34,574 nt of DNA, taken from Deltaproteobacteria bacterium (lineage in GTDB: Bacteria; Desulfobacterota; Syntrophia; Syntrophales; UBA2210). The stretch covers positions 1 to 34,574 of the forward strand of contig JAFDAS010000009.1 in the NCBI GenBank assembly GCA_019313695.1, read 5' to 3'. This document shows, piece by piece, positions 23,645 through 30,761 of this stretch. Every line of letters begins with the position of its first letter. The first letter of the stretch is position 1. The notes beneath the pieces are model-generated. The model did not search any database. It saw only the letters and a list, made by a program, of their open reading frames with translations, and was not told the origin of the DNA. The position numbers and the translations under genes are program-made.

Positions 23645-26332
23645 ATGAACAGATATATCCACTTTGTCCTTCGAAAACCGATACCCATACTGATTATGCT
23701 GGTCATTCTGACAGCGGTGCTGGTCCCCGGGATAACCAGACTGGAATTTGACAATTCCGTCGAAGCCTTCATGCCCAAAAATGACCCTGAGTATATCTAT
23801 TACACCGAGTTGAAGGAGATCTACGGCGATAACGGCCGGTTTGCCATCATGGCCGTGTCCGGCGATGATCTGTGGAGCAGTGAAACCCTCCGAAAAATCG
23901 ACCTTTTCCTTGCCGACCTGGAAGAATATAAAGACTTCGACGAGGAGAGGGAGGCTTCCCGGCTGAAAAGATTCGATTCAATCGCGTCACGGGGAGAGGT
24001 TCGTTACAGCGATCTGATGGCGCCATTCGACGATGATCCGGCCTTCCAGAGGCTGCTGGCGAGAAAAACAGTAACATCCGGCAAAACCGACCTGATAAGC
24101 GTCCGCGGTCTCAAAAAGCTGCGCGAACAGATCATCCGCTCCACGGACTTCAAGAAAAAAGAGGTCATAGACACGATCATCTCCCCCCTCACGTCGGAAG
24201 ACATAACCGGTGAAAACGACACACTCGAGACATACGGCCTTCTCGAAAAAGATGATAACGGAAAGCGGGTACTTCCCTCGTCGGAGCAGGAGATAGACAC
24301 ATTCAGACAGCGGCTGGAACGGAACCCCTCCTTCGAAAAGGGGCTTTACAGCAGAGACGCTCAGACCGGGGAGATAACCGATTTCTGCGTCGTCATCAAG
24401 TTTATAAATCTGGACGACCAGGACCCGGCCATACGCGAAATGACAGAGGTTATCGACAGCTACCGCGGCGATCTTACCATCACATCCTCGGGCGTCCCCG
24501 TCGTGAACATGTGGATGAACGATTATATGCACGCGGACCTGTTCAAGAATATCCCCCTCGTTCTCCTGGTTGTTGTCATCGTCTTCTATATCAATTTCAG
24601 ATCGGTCCGGGGGGTGCTGCTGCCCTTCATCACACTCGGGCTGGCGGAGCTGTGGATCCTGGGTCTCATGGGTTACATCGGATACCGGATCACCCCGGTC
24701 GGCGTATCCATTCCGCCCTTGATGATCGCCGTGGGGAGTTCGTACGCCATCCACATCCTCAATCAGTATTACGCCGACTTCAATACCATCATGACAATGG
24801 ACAAGCGAGTGGGACTCTACGAATCCATGTCCCACATATCACTGACCGTGCTTCTGGCCGGACTGACCACTTCCATCGCCTTCATGACGCTGGCAACCAG
24901 CCAGGTCTCGGCCATCCGCGAGTGGGGTATTGCCTCCGCCATCGGGGTCATGTTCGCCGTCTTTATCTCCTGCTCGCTGATCCCCGCTTCTCTCGTGCTC
25001 CTGCCGAGGATGAGACCTTCCGTCCTGTTCCGCGAGGATAAAGTAGGAAAAACGATAGTTGACCGGATCATCGCCCTGATGGCGAAGGGCGCCATTATTC
25101 ACTACCACAAGGTGTTGATCGTCGTCGCTATCCTCATCGCCGTGTCGGTGGCGGGAATATCCCGGATCAACATAGAAACCTCGTTTATGAACTATTTCAG
25201 GGAACACGACCGGGTCAAACTGGACACGCGGGTCATCGGCGACAAATTCGGCGGGGGATGGGGTTATGACATCGTTATTGACTCGGGAAAGGTCGACGGT
25301 GTCAAGAACCCCGCATTTCTCGTCATGATTGAAGAGTTTAGACAGTGGCTGGTCTCCGACGCGAATCCCCACCTCAATATCGGCAGGACCGAATCCTTCT
25401 CGGACTTTATCAAGACCATGCACATGGCCATGAACAATGACGACATATCCTTCTACAGGATTCCGGGAAACCCTTGGGATATCATCGATTACCTGGAGAT
25501 ATACTCCGGGGATGACGAAGACTCGGATGGCAGATTCGACGAGTTCGAGCCCTTCGTCGATATCGACTTCAGGACCTGCAACCTGCTGGCCAGGTTGTGC
25601 GAAAAGGAAGACTACCATGTGGGGACAACGGAAATAAGCAGGATTGCCGATGATATAGCGACCCATCTGGGCAAAACCCTGCCGGAAGGTGCATCGTACG
25701 CCATCAGCGGCTTCCCCATGATGAACGTCAAGCTGGTCCACTATATCGTCACGGGACAGATGCAGAGCCTCTTTCTCTCGCTCCTGGTCGTGGGCCTTAT
25801 CGTCGCCCTGCTGTTCCGGCAGATAAAGGCGGGCCCCCTGGCCCTGATACCCATGAGCGTAGCCGTCATAATCAATTTTGGCATCATGGGGTGGCTGCAC
25901 ATCAACCTGGATATGGCAACCTCCGTTATCGCCGCCATTACCATAGGGATCGGCGTGGATGACACCATTCACTTCCTCAATACATTCCGGCACAACAGGG
26001 CGCGGGGATTGAGCGTTGATGAAACGATACGGCGTACCCTCGCCGTCTCCGGAAAGGCGATACTCTTTACGTCGCTCGCGCTGGTGTTCGGATTCTCGGT
26101 ACTCATGACGTCCAATTTTCTGCCGATAGCCCTGTTCGGAATCCTGACCGCCACCACCATGATCAACACGACGATAGGGGCTCTCCTGGTGCTCCCCTCC
26201 GTCATCAAGGCCACCGGCATCAATCTCGAAAGTCCGGAATCCGATTCTCGGACGACCGGACACCTGAGCATTGACAAATTTTTCGGAATGGAACAGAATG
26301 ACTCCGAAAAACACACCGACCGACACAATTAA
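23645..26332 (+). CDS. MMPL-type RND superfamily exporter
   Basis: 895 residues with the duplicated RND plan: one transmembrane helix near 10-29, a periplasmic loop starting FDNSVEAFMPKND, a helix bundle around 295-460, then a second unit with a helix near 488-508, a second loop and a bundle around 716-860 ending in GVDDTIHFLNTFRHNRARG. SSYAIHILNQYYADF and GVDDTIHFLNTF are paired transmembrane-4 regions typical of HAE2/MMPL lipid and hydrophobic-compound exporters. The second loop holds a perfect EF-hand loop, DEDSDGRFDEFE at 624-635. The gene is followed after 16 bp by a LolA-like protein and faces an outer-membrane barrel gene, so a role in moving lipid or a hydrophobic compound across the envelope is likely. 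Confidence 0.9.
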   Translation: MNRYIHFVLRKPIPILIMLVILTAVLVPGITRLEFDNSVEAFMPKNDPEYIYYTELKEIYGDNGRFAIMAVSGDDLWSSETLRKIDLFLADLEEYKDFDEEREASRLKRFDSIASRGEVRYSDLMAPFDDDPAFQRLLARKTVTSGKTDLISVRGLKKLREQIIRSTDFKKKEVIDTIISPLTSEDITGENDTLETYGLLEKDDNGKRVLPSSEQEIDTFRQRLERNPSFEKGLYSRDAQTGEITDFCVVIKFINLDDQDPAIREMTEVIDSYRGDLTITSSGVPVVNMWMNDYMHADLFKNIPLVLLVVVIVFYINFRSVRGVLLPFITLGLAELWILGLMGYIGYRITPVGVSIPPLMIAVGSSYAIHILNQYYADFNTIMTMDKRVGLYESMSHISLTVLLAGLTTSIAFMTLATSQVSAIREWGIASAIGVMFAVFISCSLIPASLVLLPRMRPSVLFREDKVGKTIVDRIIALMAKGAIIHYHKVLIVVAILIAVSVAGISRINIETSFMNYFREHDRVKLDTRVIGDKFGGGWGYDIVIDSGKVDGVKNPAFLVMIEEFRQWLVSDANPHLNIGRTESFSDFIKTMHMAMNNDDISFYRIPGNPWDIIDYLEIYSGDDEDSDGRFDEFEPFVDIDFRTCNLLARLCEKEDYHVGTTEISRIADDIATHLGKTLPEGASYAISGFPMMNVKLVHYIVTGQMQSLFLSLLVVGLIVALLFRQIKAGPLALIPMSVAVIINFGIMGWLHINLDMATSVIAAITIGIGVDDTIHFLNTFRHNRARGLSVDETIRRTLAVSGKAILFTSLALVFGFSVLMTSNFLPIALFGILTATTMINTTIGALLVLPSVIKATGINLESPESDSRTTGHLSIDKFFGMEQNDSEKHTDRHN

Positions 26333-26348
26333 GAAAAGGGGGCTGCCG

Positions 26349-27089
26349 ATGAAACTAAGACTTCTTCTCACAATTCTTTTCGTATTGCTCCTCTCCAACC
26401 CCCTCTTCGCGCTCACGGGGAGGGAGATCATGGAGAAGAACGACGCCCTCCCTGAGGCAAAAACCGCCGTGAGTGATGTGCTGATGCAGATACACAAGGG
26501 CGAAAGGGTCATTGAAAAGCAGTTCGAGAGCAGATCAAAGAAGTTCCGGAATAATGAGGACAAGCTCCTGATATCCTTCACCCGGCCGACGCGGATAAAG
26601 CTGTTGACTCACGCGCACGAGGGAAAAAACGATGACCAGTGGCTGAGGCTGTCGTCGGGAAAGATAAAGAGAATCGCCTCCTCCGACAAGGGGAAGCCCT
26701 TTGTCAACTCACATTTCTACTATGAGGATATCGGCTCGCGGAATATTGATGATTACGCGTACAAGCTGCTGGGAGAGGAAAAGGCGGTCGATTCCTACTG
26801 CTATGCGGTAGAAGCGGTCAAGGAAGTCGGTGAGAAGGTCTACAGCAAGCTGATCCTGTATGTCCGCAAATCGGACTATTTTATTGTAAGAATTGACTTC
26901 TACAGAAAAGGCAATTTCCATAAATATCTCGAAAATTACGACATACGAGCAGTCAAGGGCATCCTGACACCCTTCAGCACCACCATGACCCGGGCGGACA
27001 AAAAGGGGAAAACGGAACTGAAGATCTTAAAACTGGAATTCAACAGAAATCTGAGAAATTCGACCTTCAATAAAGAGGCGCTGCGATAA
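26349..27089 (+). CDS. LolA-like outer-membrane lipoprotein-sorting family protein
   Basis: 246 residues. A signal peptide (MKLRLLLTILFVLLLSNPLFA, 1-21) indicates periplasmic location. RSKKFRNNEDKLLISFTRP, DQWLRLSSGKIKRIASS and FVNSHFYYEDIGSRNIDDY match the LolA-like family (outer membrane lipoprotein-sorting protein) that usually accompanies MMPL-type RND proteins. The fold is an open half-barrel that can hold a lipid chain, so it is probably the periplasmic carrier for the exporter. Start ATG 26349 with AGGGGG seven bases upstream; in-frame codons further upstream overlap the RND gene and are not needed. Confidence 0.9.
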   Translation: MKLRLLLTILFVLLLSNPLFALTGREIMEKNDALPEAKTAVSDVLMQIHKGERVIEKQFESRSKKFRNNEDKLLISFTRPTRIKLLTHAHEGKNDDQWLRLSSGKIKRIASSDKGKPFVNSHFYYEDIGSRNIDDYAYKLLGEEKAVDSYCYAVEAVKEVGEKVYSKLILYVRKSDYFIVRIDFYRKGNFHKYLENYDIRAVKGILTPFSTTMTRADKKGKTELKILKLEFNRNLRNSTFNKEALR

Positions 27090-27138
27090 AAAGACCCGCG
27101 AGAAACCCGCGCGGTAAAAAACGAATTTAATTCGAGTC

Positions 27139-27177
27139 TGACCCCATTTCTTGATTTCTTGACCCCATTTCTTGATT
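27139..27177. repeat. 21-bp-period tandem repeat (TGACCCCATTTCTTGATT twice)
   Basis: Two 18-bp identical blocks start at 27139 and 27160, in the gap between the convergent LolA-like and barrel genes. The second block runs to the last codon of the barrel gene. Confidence 0.75.
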
Positions 27178-29059
27178 AATATTCATAGCGAATCTTCCCC
27201 ATCACTATGTCGTTGTCCTTGAAGTAATAGAAGATCGAGTCGCTCTCCCAGGACGATCCCCTGTCACCCCGGATGACGGCATACCCCACTTCGATAAGGA
27301 ACCCGTTCTGAAAATCATACCCTATCTCCGGCCAGAATATCTTCCCCCCGTGTTGCGTGTCAAAGATGCCCTTGATCGTCGTCTTGACGCGACCGTCGAA
27401 ATAGCTGTCTTCAAGCTTGCAGCTGACAATATCGGTGATGGACGGAGAATAGACACCTCCCTCCAGATACCGTGACTGGAACCACTCGAAGGTAAAAACA
27501 GTATCACCCGTGTGACCCTCTATCAGCCTGCTCAGGGGGATGAAGTAGTTGAACCCGGTGGCGTAGGACAGGTAGTGTGACCTGTCGATCTCGAACGGCA
27601 GGGTCAAGCCCGGAAGACTGGTGACACTCTGCTCGACGATCCCTGCCTTGTCGGGTGAATAGGCGGCCTCGAACTGTACGACAAAATCGCCCAACGCCGC
27701 GGAGATGTCGAAGCCGAACATGCTGACAATGGAGGCCTGCGAACTGAGATGAACCGCGACGGGGATTGCGCCCTGGAAGATGATCTTGTCCGGAAGGAAG
27801 AGCTGGTCTTTATCCGGGCCGCGATATCCGCTCACGGACATATCGACTCCTCCCCTGCTGGTCGACAGCCGGGCGCCGTATCCGACATTGTCGATATCGC
27901 CGCCGAGCTGCTCCGGCTCATCGAAGATAACCGGCAGGAGAAAGCTGTTGACCGAAAGCGCCCAGAAGTTCCCCTCGGGGGCCATAATCGGAGGGATATG
28001 GACCGGCACGAAGACGGCCTCCAGCGTATAGTCGCCCAGGAAAAACATCCCGGACAGGGAGGGGACCCCGGCCTTGTTTTCGTCGTCGTCCCTGAAAAGA
28101 ATCTCCCGCATGTCGGACGGATTGAAGTATGACGTCGGATTGAAGGCATCGGCCGTCCCCCAGCCGTATATCTGATTCCCCGCGCGCAGCCTGAAATTTC
28201 CCCTGCCGTAGTTCAGATACAGCTCGTTAAAGGACAGTTCGGCCTCCCGTGAGGAAAGTCTCAGGTTTCTCGATACCTTCTGATCTTTAGCGTACAGGTA
28301 GTGATCATCCGCTCTTTTGTTCAAGTATGTCTGAAACAGGTAGATATTCGAGGCGGAGAAGAGGAAAAGGTTCTCCGTCCCATACCTCATCCGGAGGCGG
28401 TTCCTGATCTCGTTTTTCTTGTTCTTGTCCCTGAAACTCTGGCCCGTCCCGGTATTGACAAATGTCTCGAACTCTATGAACCCGCTGTAGGTAAACTCCG
28501 GATCAAACTCCTCCTCTTCCTCTGTCTCCGTCTCTTCATCACGAACAACCTGAGGGCCTTCCGGCGGACCCTTTTTCTCGATGGAGACAGCCGCTTCGAC
28601 AGGTCGATGGGCCACAGGTTCAAGAGGAGGGGGCGTCAGGGTGTACCGGTCCAGGGTCTTGACAAAAACGGGCTTTTCCTCCGCCTCCCGGTACCGGAGC
28701 GCCACACGTCCGGCTTCAGCAGCATCTTTGTACACACCGAGAAAAACCGAATGCCACAGCCTGCCCGAGGGGTCTTGCCATGAATAGATATCCGGAGTGT
28801 ATCCCCTACCCTTCAGTCTTCCCACTATGTCCCGCGCGTTTTTTTCGTCGCGGCACGCGGATGCCTGAACGGCATACACCGGTACCGTATCATTCGAAGA
28901 ATTGAGTTTCGTGGATATGTTTACCGGAAGGACGGGTTCCGAGGCGTGGGAACAGCCGTCAGAATTTACAGGCAGGAGTCCCGGATTGATGAGAGAAAGG
29001 GCGACGAGAAGCGTCAGCCATGCTGTTCGGAAGCATGCGTTCATTACTGTACCCGGCAT
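27176..29059 (-). CDS. SPOR-domain plus beta-barrel outer-membrane protein
   Basis: 627 residues (622 if the ATG at 29044 is used). An N-terminal hydrophobic signal (WLTLLVALSLINPGLLP) is followed by a SPOR-like domain (about 60-136: VYAVQASACRDEKNARDIVG ... LWHSVFLGVYKDAAEAGRVA), a Pro/Glu-rich linker with EETETEEEEE (about 173-183), and a barrel region (about 188-627) of alternating aromatic strands ending KIRYEY, with a terminal Tyr as in porins. The barrel resembles DUF1302-type proteins that travel with MMPL exporters and LolA-like carriers, the two genes facing it. SPOR domains normally bind denuded septal peptidoglycan; fusion to such a barrel would tether it to the wall. Domain calls are by eye. 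Confidence 0.75.
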   Translation of the reverse strand: MPGTVMNACFRTAWLTLLVALSLINPGLLPVNSDGCSHASEPVLPVNISTKLNSSNDTVPVYAVQASACRDEKNARDIVGRLKGRGYTPDIYSWQDPSGRLWHSVFLGVYKDAAEAGRVALRYREAEEKPVFVKTLDRYTLTPPPLEPVAHRPVEAAVSIEKKGPPEGPQVVRDEETETEEEEEFDPEFTYSGFIEFETFVNTGTGQSFRDKNKKNEIRNRLRMRYGTENLFLFSASNIYLFQTYLNKRADDHYLYAKDQKVSRNLRLSSREAELSFNELYLNYGRGNFRLRAGNQIYGWGTADAFNPTSYFNPSDMREILFRDDDENKAGVPSLSGMFFLGDYTLEAVFVPVHIPPIMAPEGNFWALSVNSFLLPVIFDEPEQLGGDIDNVGYGARLSTSRGGVDMSVSGYRGPDKDQLFLPDKIIFQGAIPVAVHLSSQASIVSMFGFDISAALGDFVVQFEAAYSPDKAGIVEQSVTSLPGLTLPFEIDRSHYLSYATGFNYFIPLSRLIEGHTGDTVFTFEWFQSRYLEGGVYSPSITDIVSCKLEDSYFDGRVKTTIKGIFDTQHGGKIFWPEIGYDFQNGFLIEVGYAVIRGDRGSSWESDSIFYYFKDNDIVMGKIRYEY

Positions 29060-29122: not shown

Positions 29123-30190
29123 TCATACACTAAACCGTATGGCAAGTATATCCCCATCCTTGACTATGTAGTCTTTTCCCTCCAGACGAAAACGTCCCTT
29201 GTCATGGACCCCTTTTTCAGAGCCACATTCAATCAGGTCGCTATATGAAAAGCACTCCGAGCGAATAAACCCCCGGGAAAGATCCGAATGAATGACCCCT
29301 GCGGCTTCCACCGCGGACTGGCCTTCATGTATATTCCATGCCCGCACTTCATCCGTTCCCACGGTAAAGAAGCTGATGGAATTGGAGATTTCGTATGCCG
29401 CCCGCGTCAGGCGATCTCTGGCCGATTCTTCTATCTCCATATCTTCCATGAAAAGCTGTTTCTCTTCATCATCCAGGCCGGACAGCTCCATTTCAAAGTT
29501 TCCGGCAAATTCAACCACTTTATATCTTTTCCCAATCTCTTCCAGCAGTTCCCGGTTTTTTCCAAATGTATCTTCGCTCGAGTTGAGTATAACCAAAAGC
29601 GGTTTTCCCGTCAAAAACTGGAATCCGCGAATTATCTTTTCTTCATCCCTGTCAAGTTCCATCTCAATGACTCGTCCGTCGTCATTCAGGCATTGCAGAA
29701 TCTTTCGCAGGACATTCTCTTCCAGCTGAGACACGGGCGTTTTCTGCCCCCGCTTATGAGCCAGGGCGATCTTCTCCAGCCGTCGTTCGCAAATTATCAG
29801 ATCAGAGATCAGCAGTTCCGTCTCAACCTGTTCAATATCGCTCGGCGGAACCGGGGCATCCCCCAGAACATCCGTAAAATTTCTTACAACCAGCGCGAGT
29901 GTATCTGTATTTCTCATCATCCCCACTGAGGCGTCCGGAAACGATACCTTTCCCGCCGAATCACGCGCAAGTCCCGCGAAATCCACAAATTGCATTGTCG
30001 CGTAGGCTGTTTTTTCCGGTTTATACATATCGGAGAGACGCGTTATCCGCTCATCGATCACATTCACGACGGCAACATTCGGCTTGGATTTTGCGTCCGC
30101 GTATGTTGTTACCTCCGCCACGCGCCCTGTCAGCGCGTTAAAAATCGTCGTCTTGCCGGAATTCGGCAGACCGATTAAACCTATCTCCAT
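29123..30190 (-). CDS. ychF: YchF/Ola1-family ATPase, divergent form
   Basis: 355 residues. GLPNSGKTT (7-15) is the P-loop, VDFAGL (69-74) the G3 site, and NSSE (203-206) the G4 site: the Glu in place of Asp is the known YchF feature that switches preference from GTP to ATP. A C-terminal TGS domain is clear from SFFTVGTDEVRAWNIHEGQS and the ending GKDYIVKDGDILAIRFSV. Canonical YchF has a Gly-rich switch II (GASKGEGLGNKFL type); here the same place reads ARDSAGKVSFPDAS, so this is a diverged paralogue or lineage form. YchF binds ribosomes and modulates stress responses. GAGG precedes the ATG; 13 bp downstream of the decayed DUF554 gene. Confidence 0.88.
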   Translation of the reverse strand: MEIGLIGLPNSGKTTIFNALTGRVAEVTTYADAKSKPNVAVVNVIDERITRLSDMYKPEKTAYATMQFVDFAGLARDSAGKVSFPDASVGMMRNTDTLALVVRNFTDVLGDAPVPPSDIEQVETELLISDLIICERRLEKIALAHKRGQKTPVSQLEENVLRKILQCLNDDGRVIEMELDRDEEKIIRGFQFLTGKPLLVILNSSEDTFGKNRELLEEIGKRYKVVEFAGNFEMELSGLDDEEKQLFMEDMEIEESARDRLTRAAYEISNSISFFTVGTDEVRAWNIHEGQSAVEAAGVIHSDLSRGFIRSECFSYSDLIECGSEKGVHDKGRFRLEGKDYIVKDGDILAIRFSV

Positions 30191-30202
30191 AGCTTTTTCC
30201 TC

Positions 30203-30761
30203 TTAAACAAACACAGCCCACGCGATGGCATAAAAAATTGCGGGCAGAAAATTTCCTATACGTATTTTTGTTATTTTCAAAAGGTTCATGCCTATCCCTA
30301 CGATAAGCAATCCACCGGTGACTGTATGACGCAAGGGGTATCGCTATTACACCGTCAATGAGAGACTTCACATAGAGCGTTGTCGAATCGCCAATAGTGC
30401 CATCCTGTATGGAGCCGACTATCATCATCGCGCCCGTGAGGTAGAGAACGGAAGCGGACATAAAACCTTCCGCGAATGTAGAAGAATTCGATCTGAAACG
30501 GATTTTGATCCATCCCCCAAGGCGTTCAATCCAATACTCGATCCTGATCAATTCACCGGTTATCGCGCCGACCAGCATACAGCCAATGGTCACGATAAGA
30601 TCCGTGACGGAAAGGGCCATTTTAAGACCGACAAGCACAACTGAAAGCCCGAGCGCCTGCACCATGATCGTCTTGATTTTTTCGGGGAGATATCTCCCCG
30701 CGGATATCCCTATCAATCCTCCCGCAATAATAGCTCCTGTGTTAACCAGTGTTCCCGTCAA
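30203..30761 (-). pseudogene. Decayed DUF554 membrane protein gene with internal deletion and frameshift
   Basis: The first part reads as a DUF554 protein (TLVNTGAIIAGGLIGISAGR ... ALGLSVVLVGLKMAL) up to YVKSLIDGVIAIPLAS. Continuing in that frame gives non-family sequence. In another frame from about 30322 to the stop at 30205-30203 the normal C-terminus appears: VTGGLLIVGIGMNLLKITKI, then RIGNFLPAIFYAIAWAVFV. Some 40-50 residues normally found between these parts are missing, so a deletion fused the ends out of frame. The gene starts at TTG 30761 with AAGGA seven bases upstream. The product of this inner-membrane family is of unknown function; here it is probably inactive, though an assembly error cannot be ruled out. 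Confidence 0.8.

Follow-up and report, generated by a model that had tools for sequence, protein, structure and literature searches.

Three genes in the window (the whole 34,574-nucleotide stretch of DNA analyzed, one contig of a metagenome-assembled genome, MAG, of 2.8 Mb) probably encode a three-part, AmeABCD-like route by which a hydrophobic or amphiphilic molecule crosses the cell envelope. Here, the outer-membrane barrel has acquired a putative wall-binding SPOR domain. The three parts are an RND transporter, a LolA-like periplasmic carrier, and a DUF1302-type barrel (Table 1). As originally predicted, the RND and LolA-like genes form one unit on the plus strand, the ATG of the latter (26349) lying 16 bp past the RND stop, and the barrel gene faces them, converging across 86 bp. 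The same prediction presented the set as an undescribed system, and in this it has to be corrected: RND/LolA-fold/DUF1302 systems have already been published (PMC6394551, PMC10866462), so the window set is a variant and not a new kind. Such routes are recognized and little understood. What is new is the SPOR-DUF1302 fusion, whereas the transport route is of a known kind.

All comparisons were made on draft MAGs, in which the absence of a gene may reflect an assembly gap. They covered the Syntrophales family of the window genome (f1, 19 genomes), its sister group in the barrel tree (f82), and a phylum sample of 395 genomes that was searched for SPOR-DUF1302 proteins.

Table 1. Coordinates of the features discussed; positions without a locus prefix are those of the window
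Feature	Position	Strand	Evidence
RND transporter, MMPL/HAE3 type, 895 aa	23645..26332	+	Pfam MMPL, TIGR00921, PDB matches
EF-hand-type calcium loop DEDSDGRFDEFE, RND residues 624-635	25514..25549	+	Matches D.[DN].[DN]G.[FILVYM]...E
LolA_like periplasmic carrier with signal peptide, 246 aa	26349..27089	+	PF17131, phmmer
Terminator-like hairpin between converging genes	27097..27111	-	Pattern scan: 6 pairs (5 G-C), then T run
Repeat AAGAAATGGGGTCAGACTCGAATT at junction	27129..27152	-	21-base core with four further genome copies
SPOR - acidic linker - DUF1302-type outer-membrane barrel, 627 aa	27176..29059	-	Pfam and orthologues
DUF1302-type beta-barrel, residues 188-627	27179..28498	-	Orthologues over cut-off; weak strand-containing model; Foldseek
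Acidic linker, residues 137-188	28496..28651	-	16 D/E versus 5 K/R
SPOR domain, residues 62-134	28658..28876	-	PF05036; whole-genome search; AlphaFold2 secondary structure
ychF (redox-regulated ATPase YchF), outside the route	29123..30190	-	TIGR00092, 287 bits, over cut-off
DUF1302 barrels with N-terminal AMIN	L128:945-2828, L129:1254-3092, L202:957-2720
DUF1302 barrel with N-terminal OmpA	L123:1332-3380
f82 rows: barrel, then protein X and TatT	L041:4060-10549; L118:142-7004

Pump and carrier

The MMPL, LolA-like, and SPOR domains predicted for the three proteins were recovered by profile search. The RND protein matches PF03176 (MMPL) at 110.5 bits (Pfam cut-off, 20.5) and TIGR00921 (HAE3) at 218.7 bits, below the cut-off of 351.9, and its PDB matches are MmpL3, MmpL4, and HpnN; its AlphaFold2 model is poor (mean pLDDT, 40). 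Two specific identities were ruled out, namely, the hopanoid transporter HpnN (TIGR03480, 97.6 bits versus a cut-off of 751.85) and the sterol transporter BstA (NF045600, 43.7 bits versus a cut-off of 1400). The second half of the protein contains GIGVDDTIH, and the equivalent site in the first half is without the Asp (VGSSYAIH), a pattern kept in most of the clade. Genome G007 encodes six RNDs of this clade, three of them in tandem ahead of one LolA-like gene (L070:3823-12109; L085; L086), and G011 encodes four.

The carrier matches PF17131 (LolA_like) at 136.5 bits (cut-off, 30), with no DUF1329 match reported by Pfam, and its phmmer matches are 9tp6, 3bk5, and 4z48. No LolCDE-type ABC transporter lies beside its gene in the window. 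Because a second LolA-like gene occurs elsewhere in the same genome (L059), at a separate locus with two FtsX/MacB-type permeases and an ABC ATPase, the window protein is probably not the lipoprotein-sorting LolA of this organism, and that assignment was rejected.

Relation to known routes and probable direction of transport

AmeABCD of Castellaniella defragrans, for which outward carriage of monoterpenes has been proposed, likewise unites an RND pump (of the HAE3 type, for which the window RND scores below the cut-off), a LolA-fold periplasmic protein, and a DUF1302 outer-membrane protein in one system (PMC6394551). The two differ in several respects: AmeB is a DUF1329 protein, whereas the window carrier belongs to PF17131; no AmeC-like second periplasmic protein was found among the window neighbors that were scanned; AmeA as described has no SPOR domain; and the ame genes form one codirectional cassette, whereas the window barrel gene is convergent (in f82, all are in one operon). 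In function, the window set is taken to resemble Ame, but it is not classed as a member, since DUF1329, AmeC, and the single cassette were not found in it. PP_0765/PP_0766 and PP_2018/PP_2019 of Pseudomonas putida also comprise a DUF1302 barrel, a LolA-fold carrier, and an RND-type pump with linked phenotypes, and the barrel and pump genes also lie apart, going by their locus numbers. This set is needed for use of Tween 20, and co-folding gave weak predicted contacts of the LolA-fold protein with both the barrel and the pump (PMC10866462). It differs from the window set in its DUF1329 carrier, in an extra periplasmic protein, in having no SPOR described, and in its link to growth on Tween 20.

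By analogy, the window LolA-like protein would shuttle a hydrophobic molecule between pump and barrel. Driven by an ion gradient, the RND would extract the substrate from the periplasm or from the outer leaflet of the inner membrane and hand it to the LolA-like carrier, which would then deliver it to the barrel in the outer membrane. As a direction, export is slightly favored over uptake: characterized HAE3 pumps send their substrates outward into the periplasm (PMC6394551), and no TRAP or catabolic genes adjoin the three genes in the window. Alternatively, the route could serve uptake: a hydrophobic growth substrate would enter through the barrel and travel inward on the LolA-like protein, and the RND would either move it at the inner membrane or dispose of by-products. 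This reading is somewhat unlikely, although several observations point that way. PP_0765, PP_0766, and PP_2019 are required for growth on Tween 20 (PMC10866462); in Thalassolituus, an MMPL-LolA fusion and the neighboring porin increase on C28 alkane (PMC6304351); and the operon of L041, a Desulfococcus MAG that groups with f82, runs on from TatT into DctP, DctQ, and DctM of a TRAP transporter, an arrangement that fits uptake as well as export.

The SPOR-barrel fusion

In the AmeABCD-like route preferred here, the distinctive part is the barrel protein, whose predicted N-terminal SPOR domain and acidic linker are both present. SPOR scores 38.5 bits against PF05036 (cut-off, 21) and 42.7 bits in a whole-genome search; DUF1302 scores 21.9 bits in the window copy, just under the cut-off of 23.2, and 26.6 to 40.6 bits in ten orthologues. 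The G012 orthologue starts at the position of Met6 (29044), which is therefore the probable conserved start. Structure prediction was of partial help, the AlphaFold2 model of the barrel being poor (mean pLDDT, 46). The model contains strands, and its best Foldseek matches are porins, which, given its quality, lends weak support. The stretch from residue 61 to 136 adopts the beta-alpha-beta-beta-alpha-beta order of a SPOR-like fold at a pLDDT of ~53 to 81 (a single low-depth model, without superposition). No solved SPOR structure was retrieved when the SPOR segment alone served as the query. Among PDB entries, the SPOR profile ranked pentatricopeptide repeats first, which were dismissed as fortuitous single-helix matches, and CwlC and DamX next (E, 0.04 to 0.05).

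Conservation of the acidic linker extends beyond that of SPOR, and an acidic N-terminal stretch is present in sister-group barrels without SPOR. A tether of ~50 residues spans at most ~17 nm when fully extended (at 0.34 nm per residue), which is long enough for the wall. Through this tether, SPOR would bind peptidoglycan, probably peptide-stripped glycan, and fix the barrel to the wall. Gln65 is invariant in an alignment of all eight SPOR copies, as is a Cys. From its position in the first strand, Gln65 is taken to be the counterpart of Q270 of RlpA; this SPOR residue makes contact with glycan in RlpA, and DamX requires it (PMC6895207). A glycan-contacting Gln would thus be shared with the SPOR proteins DamX, FtsN, and RlpA, none of which is described as an outer-membrane beta-barrel in PMC6895207. 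The basic patch that assists glycan binding by RlpA has no clear counterpart in the alignment and is not evident in the window SPOR. SPOR most likely anchors the barrel to peptidoglycan and possibly enriches it at septa, the division sites of the cell. The PilQ secretin, too, is a channel of the outer membrane that binds peptidoglycan through a domain at its N terminus, and its AMIN domains direct the pilus machine to future division sites (PMC5285504). Its channel and domain are unrelated to those of the window barrel, it serves a pilus machine, and its localization has been observed, whereas the window system is known from sequence.

Among the 12 barrels of f1, SPOR exceeds the Pfam cut-off in seven, with two copies in G010 and only 22.1 bits in G007. 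It is missing or truncated in the other five (G001, G005, G006, G011, and G014), with recognizable remnants in G001, G011, and G014; because G001 is 7% contaminated, its barrel and second RND may be foreign. A close barrel occurs in 19 of 36 f82 genomes, and none of these 19 matches extends into the SPOR region; those f82 barrels that were read consist of a signal peptide, an acidic stretch, and the barrel only. Among the matches listed for the 395-genome sample, no other frame matches both the SPOR and the barrel parts, and SPOR is absent from all 48 divergent DUF1302 proteins elsewhere in the phylum. No paper naming both "SPOR domain" and "DUF1302" was found, in literature coverage short of most subscription journals. 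In a tree of the barrel part rooted between f82 and f1, five SPOR changes are needed, and well-supported branches force at least four of these, although branch support in the trees is mixed overall. This pattern is most simply read as one gain of SPOR in f1 followed by three or four losses or truncations. Because SPOR has been lost repeatedly, the route can apparently do without it, and the domain would be a dispensable accessory and not a core part. Of the proposed tie between the outer-membrane end of the route and the cell wall, the SPOR domain itself therefore stands, but not as a fixed part of the system. Natural pairs that differ in the presence of SPOR exist within the family, for instance, G003 versus G005.

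The three or more losses or truncations in f1, the low score in G007, and the lack of a clear basic patch would also be expected if SPOR were merely carried along, lacking a functional binding surface and on its way out. This explanation concerns SPOR alone and is compatible with the route; it is unlikely in view of the seven barrels that keep the domain over the Pfam cut-off with the invariant Gln and Cys, and of the two copies in G010. Wall anchoring by SPOR, the reading favored here, has parallels in the 48 divergent DUF1302 proteins, four of which carry AMIN and one OmpA in the same N-terminal place (Table 1). The barrels at L123 (OmpA), L128, and L129 (both AMIN) adjoin a LolA-like gene. 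Wall-binding modules therefore seem to have been added to such barrels more than once, and the apparently separate gains of SPOR, AMIN, and OmpA suggest that wall anchoring is a recurrent need. If SPOR does send the barrel to septa, envelope transport of the lipid type would be linked to division.

Linkage of the three genes

In relatives, the barrel accompanies the RND pair, as the original prediction required. In f1, a close RND relative and the barrel occur together in 11 genomes, are both missing in six, and occur singly in two, namely, the barrel in G003 and the RND in G004 (MAGs 80% and 86% complete; Fisher p = 0.0017 for the co-occurrence, kinship ignored). No close barrel relative was found in other families of the order, and outside f1 the phylum sample has one in f82 only. 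There, a single operon in L041 and L118 comprises the RND, LolA-like, and barrel genes and the gene for a protein termed X; in L119, the LolA-like, barrel, and X genes are consecutive, and a nearby RND gene faces away. The converging layout is found in G000, G012, G016, and G007 and, judged from contig ends, probably also in G010 and G011. In G005 and G014, RND-LolA lies apart from the barrel, and in G002 and G006 the two are split between contigs; their linkage as gene order is not obligatory. Taken together, the co-occurrence in f1, the f82 operon, and the converging layouts indicate a functional and not an accidental link. It is very improbable that the barrel is a stand-alone porin merely lying near RND-LolA, as the unlinked genomes and the two separate conserved blocks might suggest (NaCa-Nnr-RND-LolA and DUF554-ychF-barrel, the barrel following ychF and RND-LolA following Nnr in most relatives), given that presence and absence agree in 17 of the 19 genomes, that the adjacency occurs without ychF in G007, and that the single operon of the sister group already weakens this explanation.

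Upstream of the barrel gene, ychF lies on the same strand across a gap of ~60 bp, and the barrel is therefore transcribed separately from RND-LolA; the order DUF554-ychF-barrel is kept in eight genomes. The window DUF554 frame (30138-30761) aligns with its relatives only over about residues 1 to 145; the remainder, up to residue 207, has no match in them, which points to a frameshift or an error in the assembly. The four other copies of the junction repeat core all lie on contig C200 within 3 kb (G000:C200:14381-17205), and the repeat may mark a mobile element.

A putative calcium loop in the pump

The conserved EF-hand-type loop of the RND clade represents a novel feature, separate from the SPOR fusion, to judge from pattern matches. 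The loop is found in the second periplasmic region of 22 of 22 RNDs of the clade and is absent from the two other RNDs of the window genome that were compared. The second gene upstream of the RND encodes a Na/Ca exchanger, an order kept in several relatives. It is conceivable, though quite doubtful, that SPOR sets the outer-membrane exit at denuded septal peptidoglycan and so ties an RND/LolA-type lipid route to the division site and the cell cycle, with the RND gated by periplasmic calcium through this loop. Protein X was looked for in the window genome and not found there; it follows the barrel in f82, is also encoded in four f1 genomes, and is a repeat protein with a lipoprotein-type start and three EF-hand-like loops.
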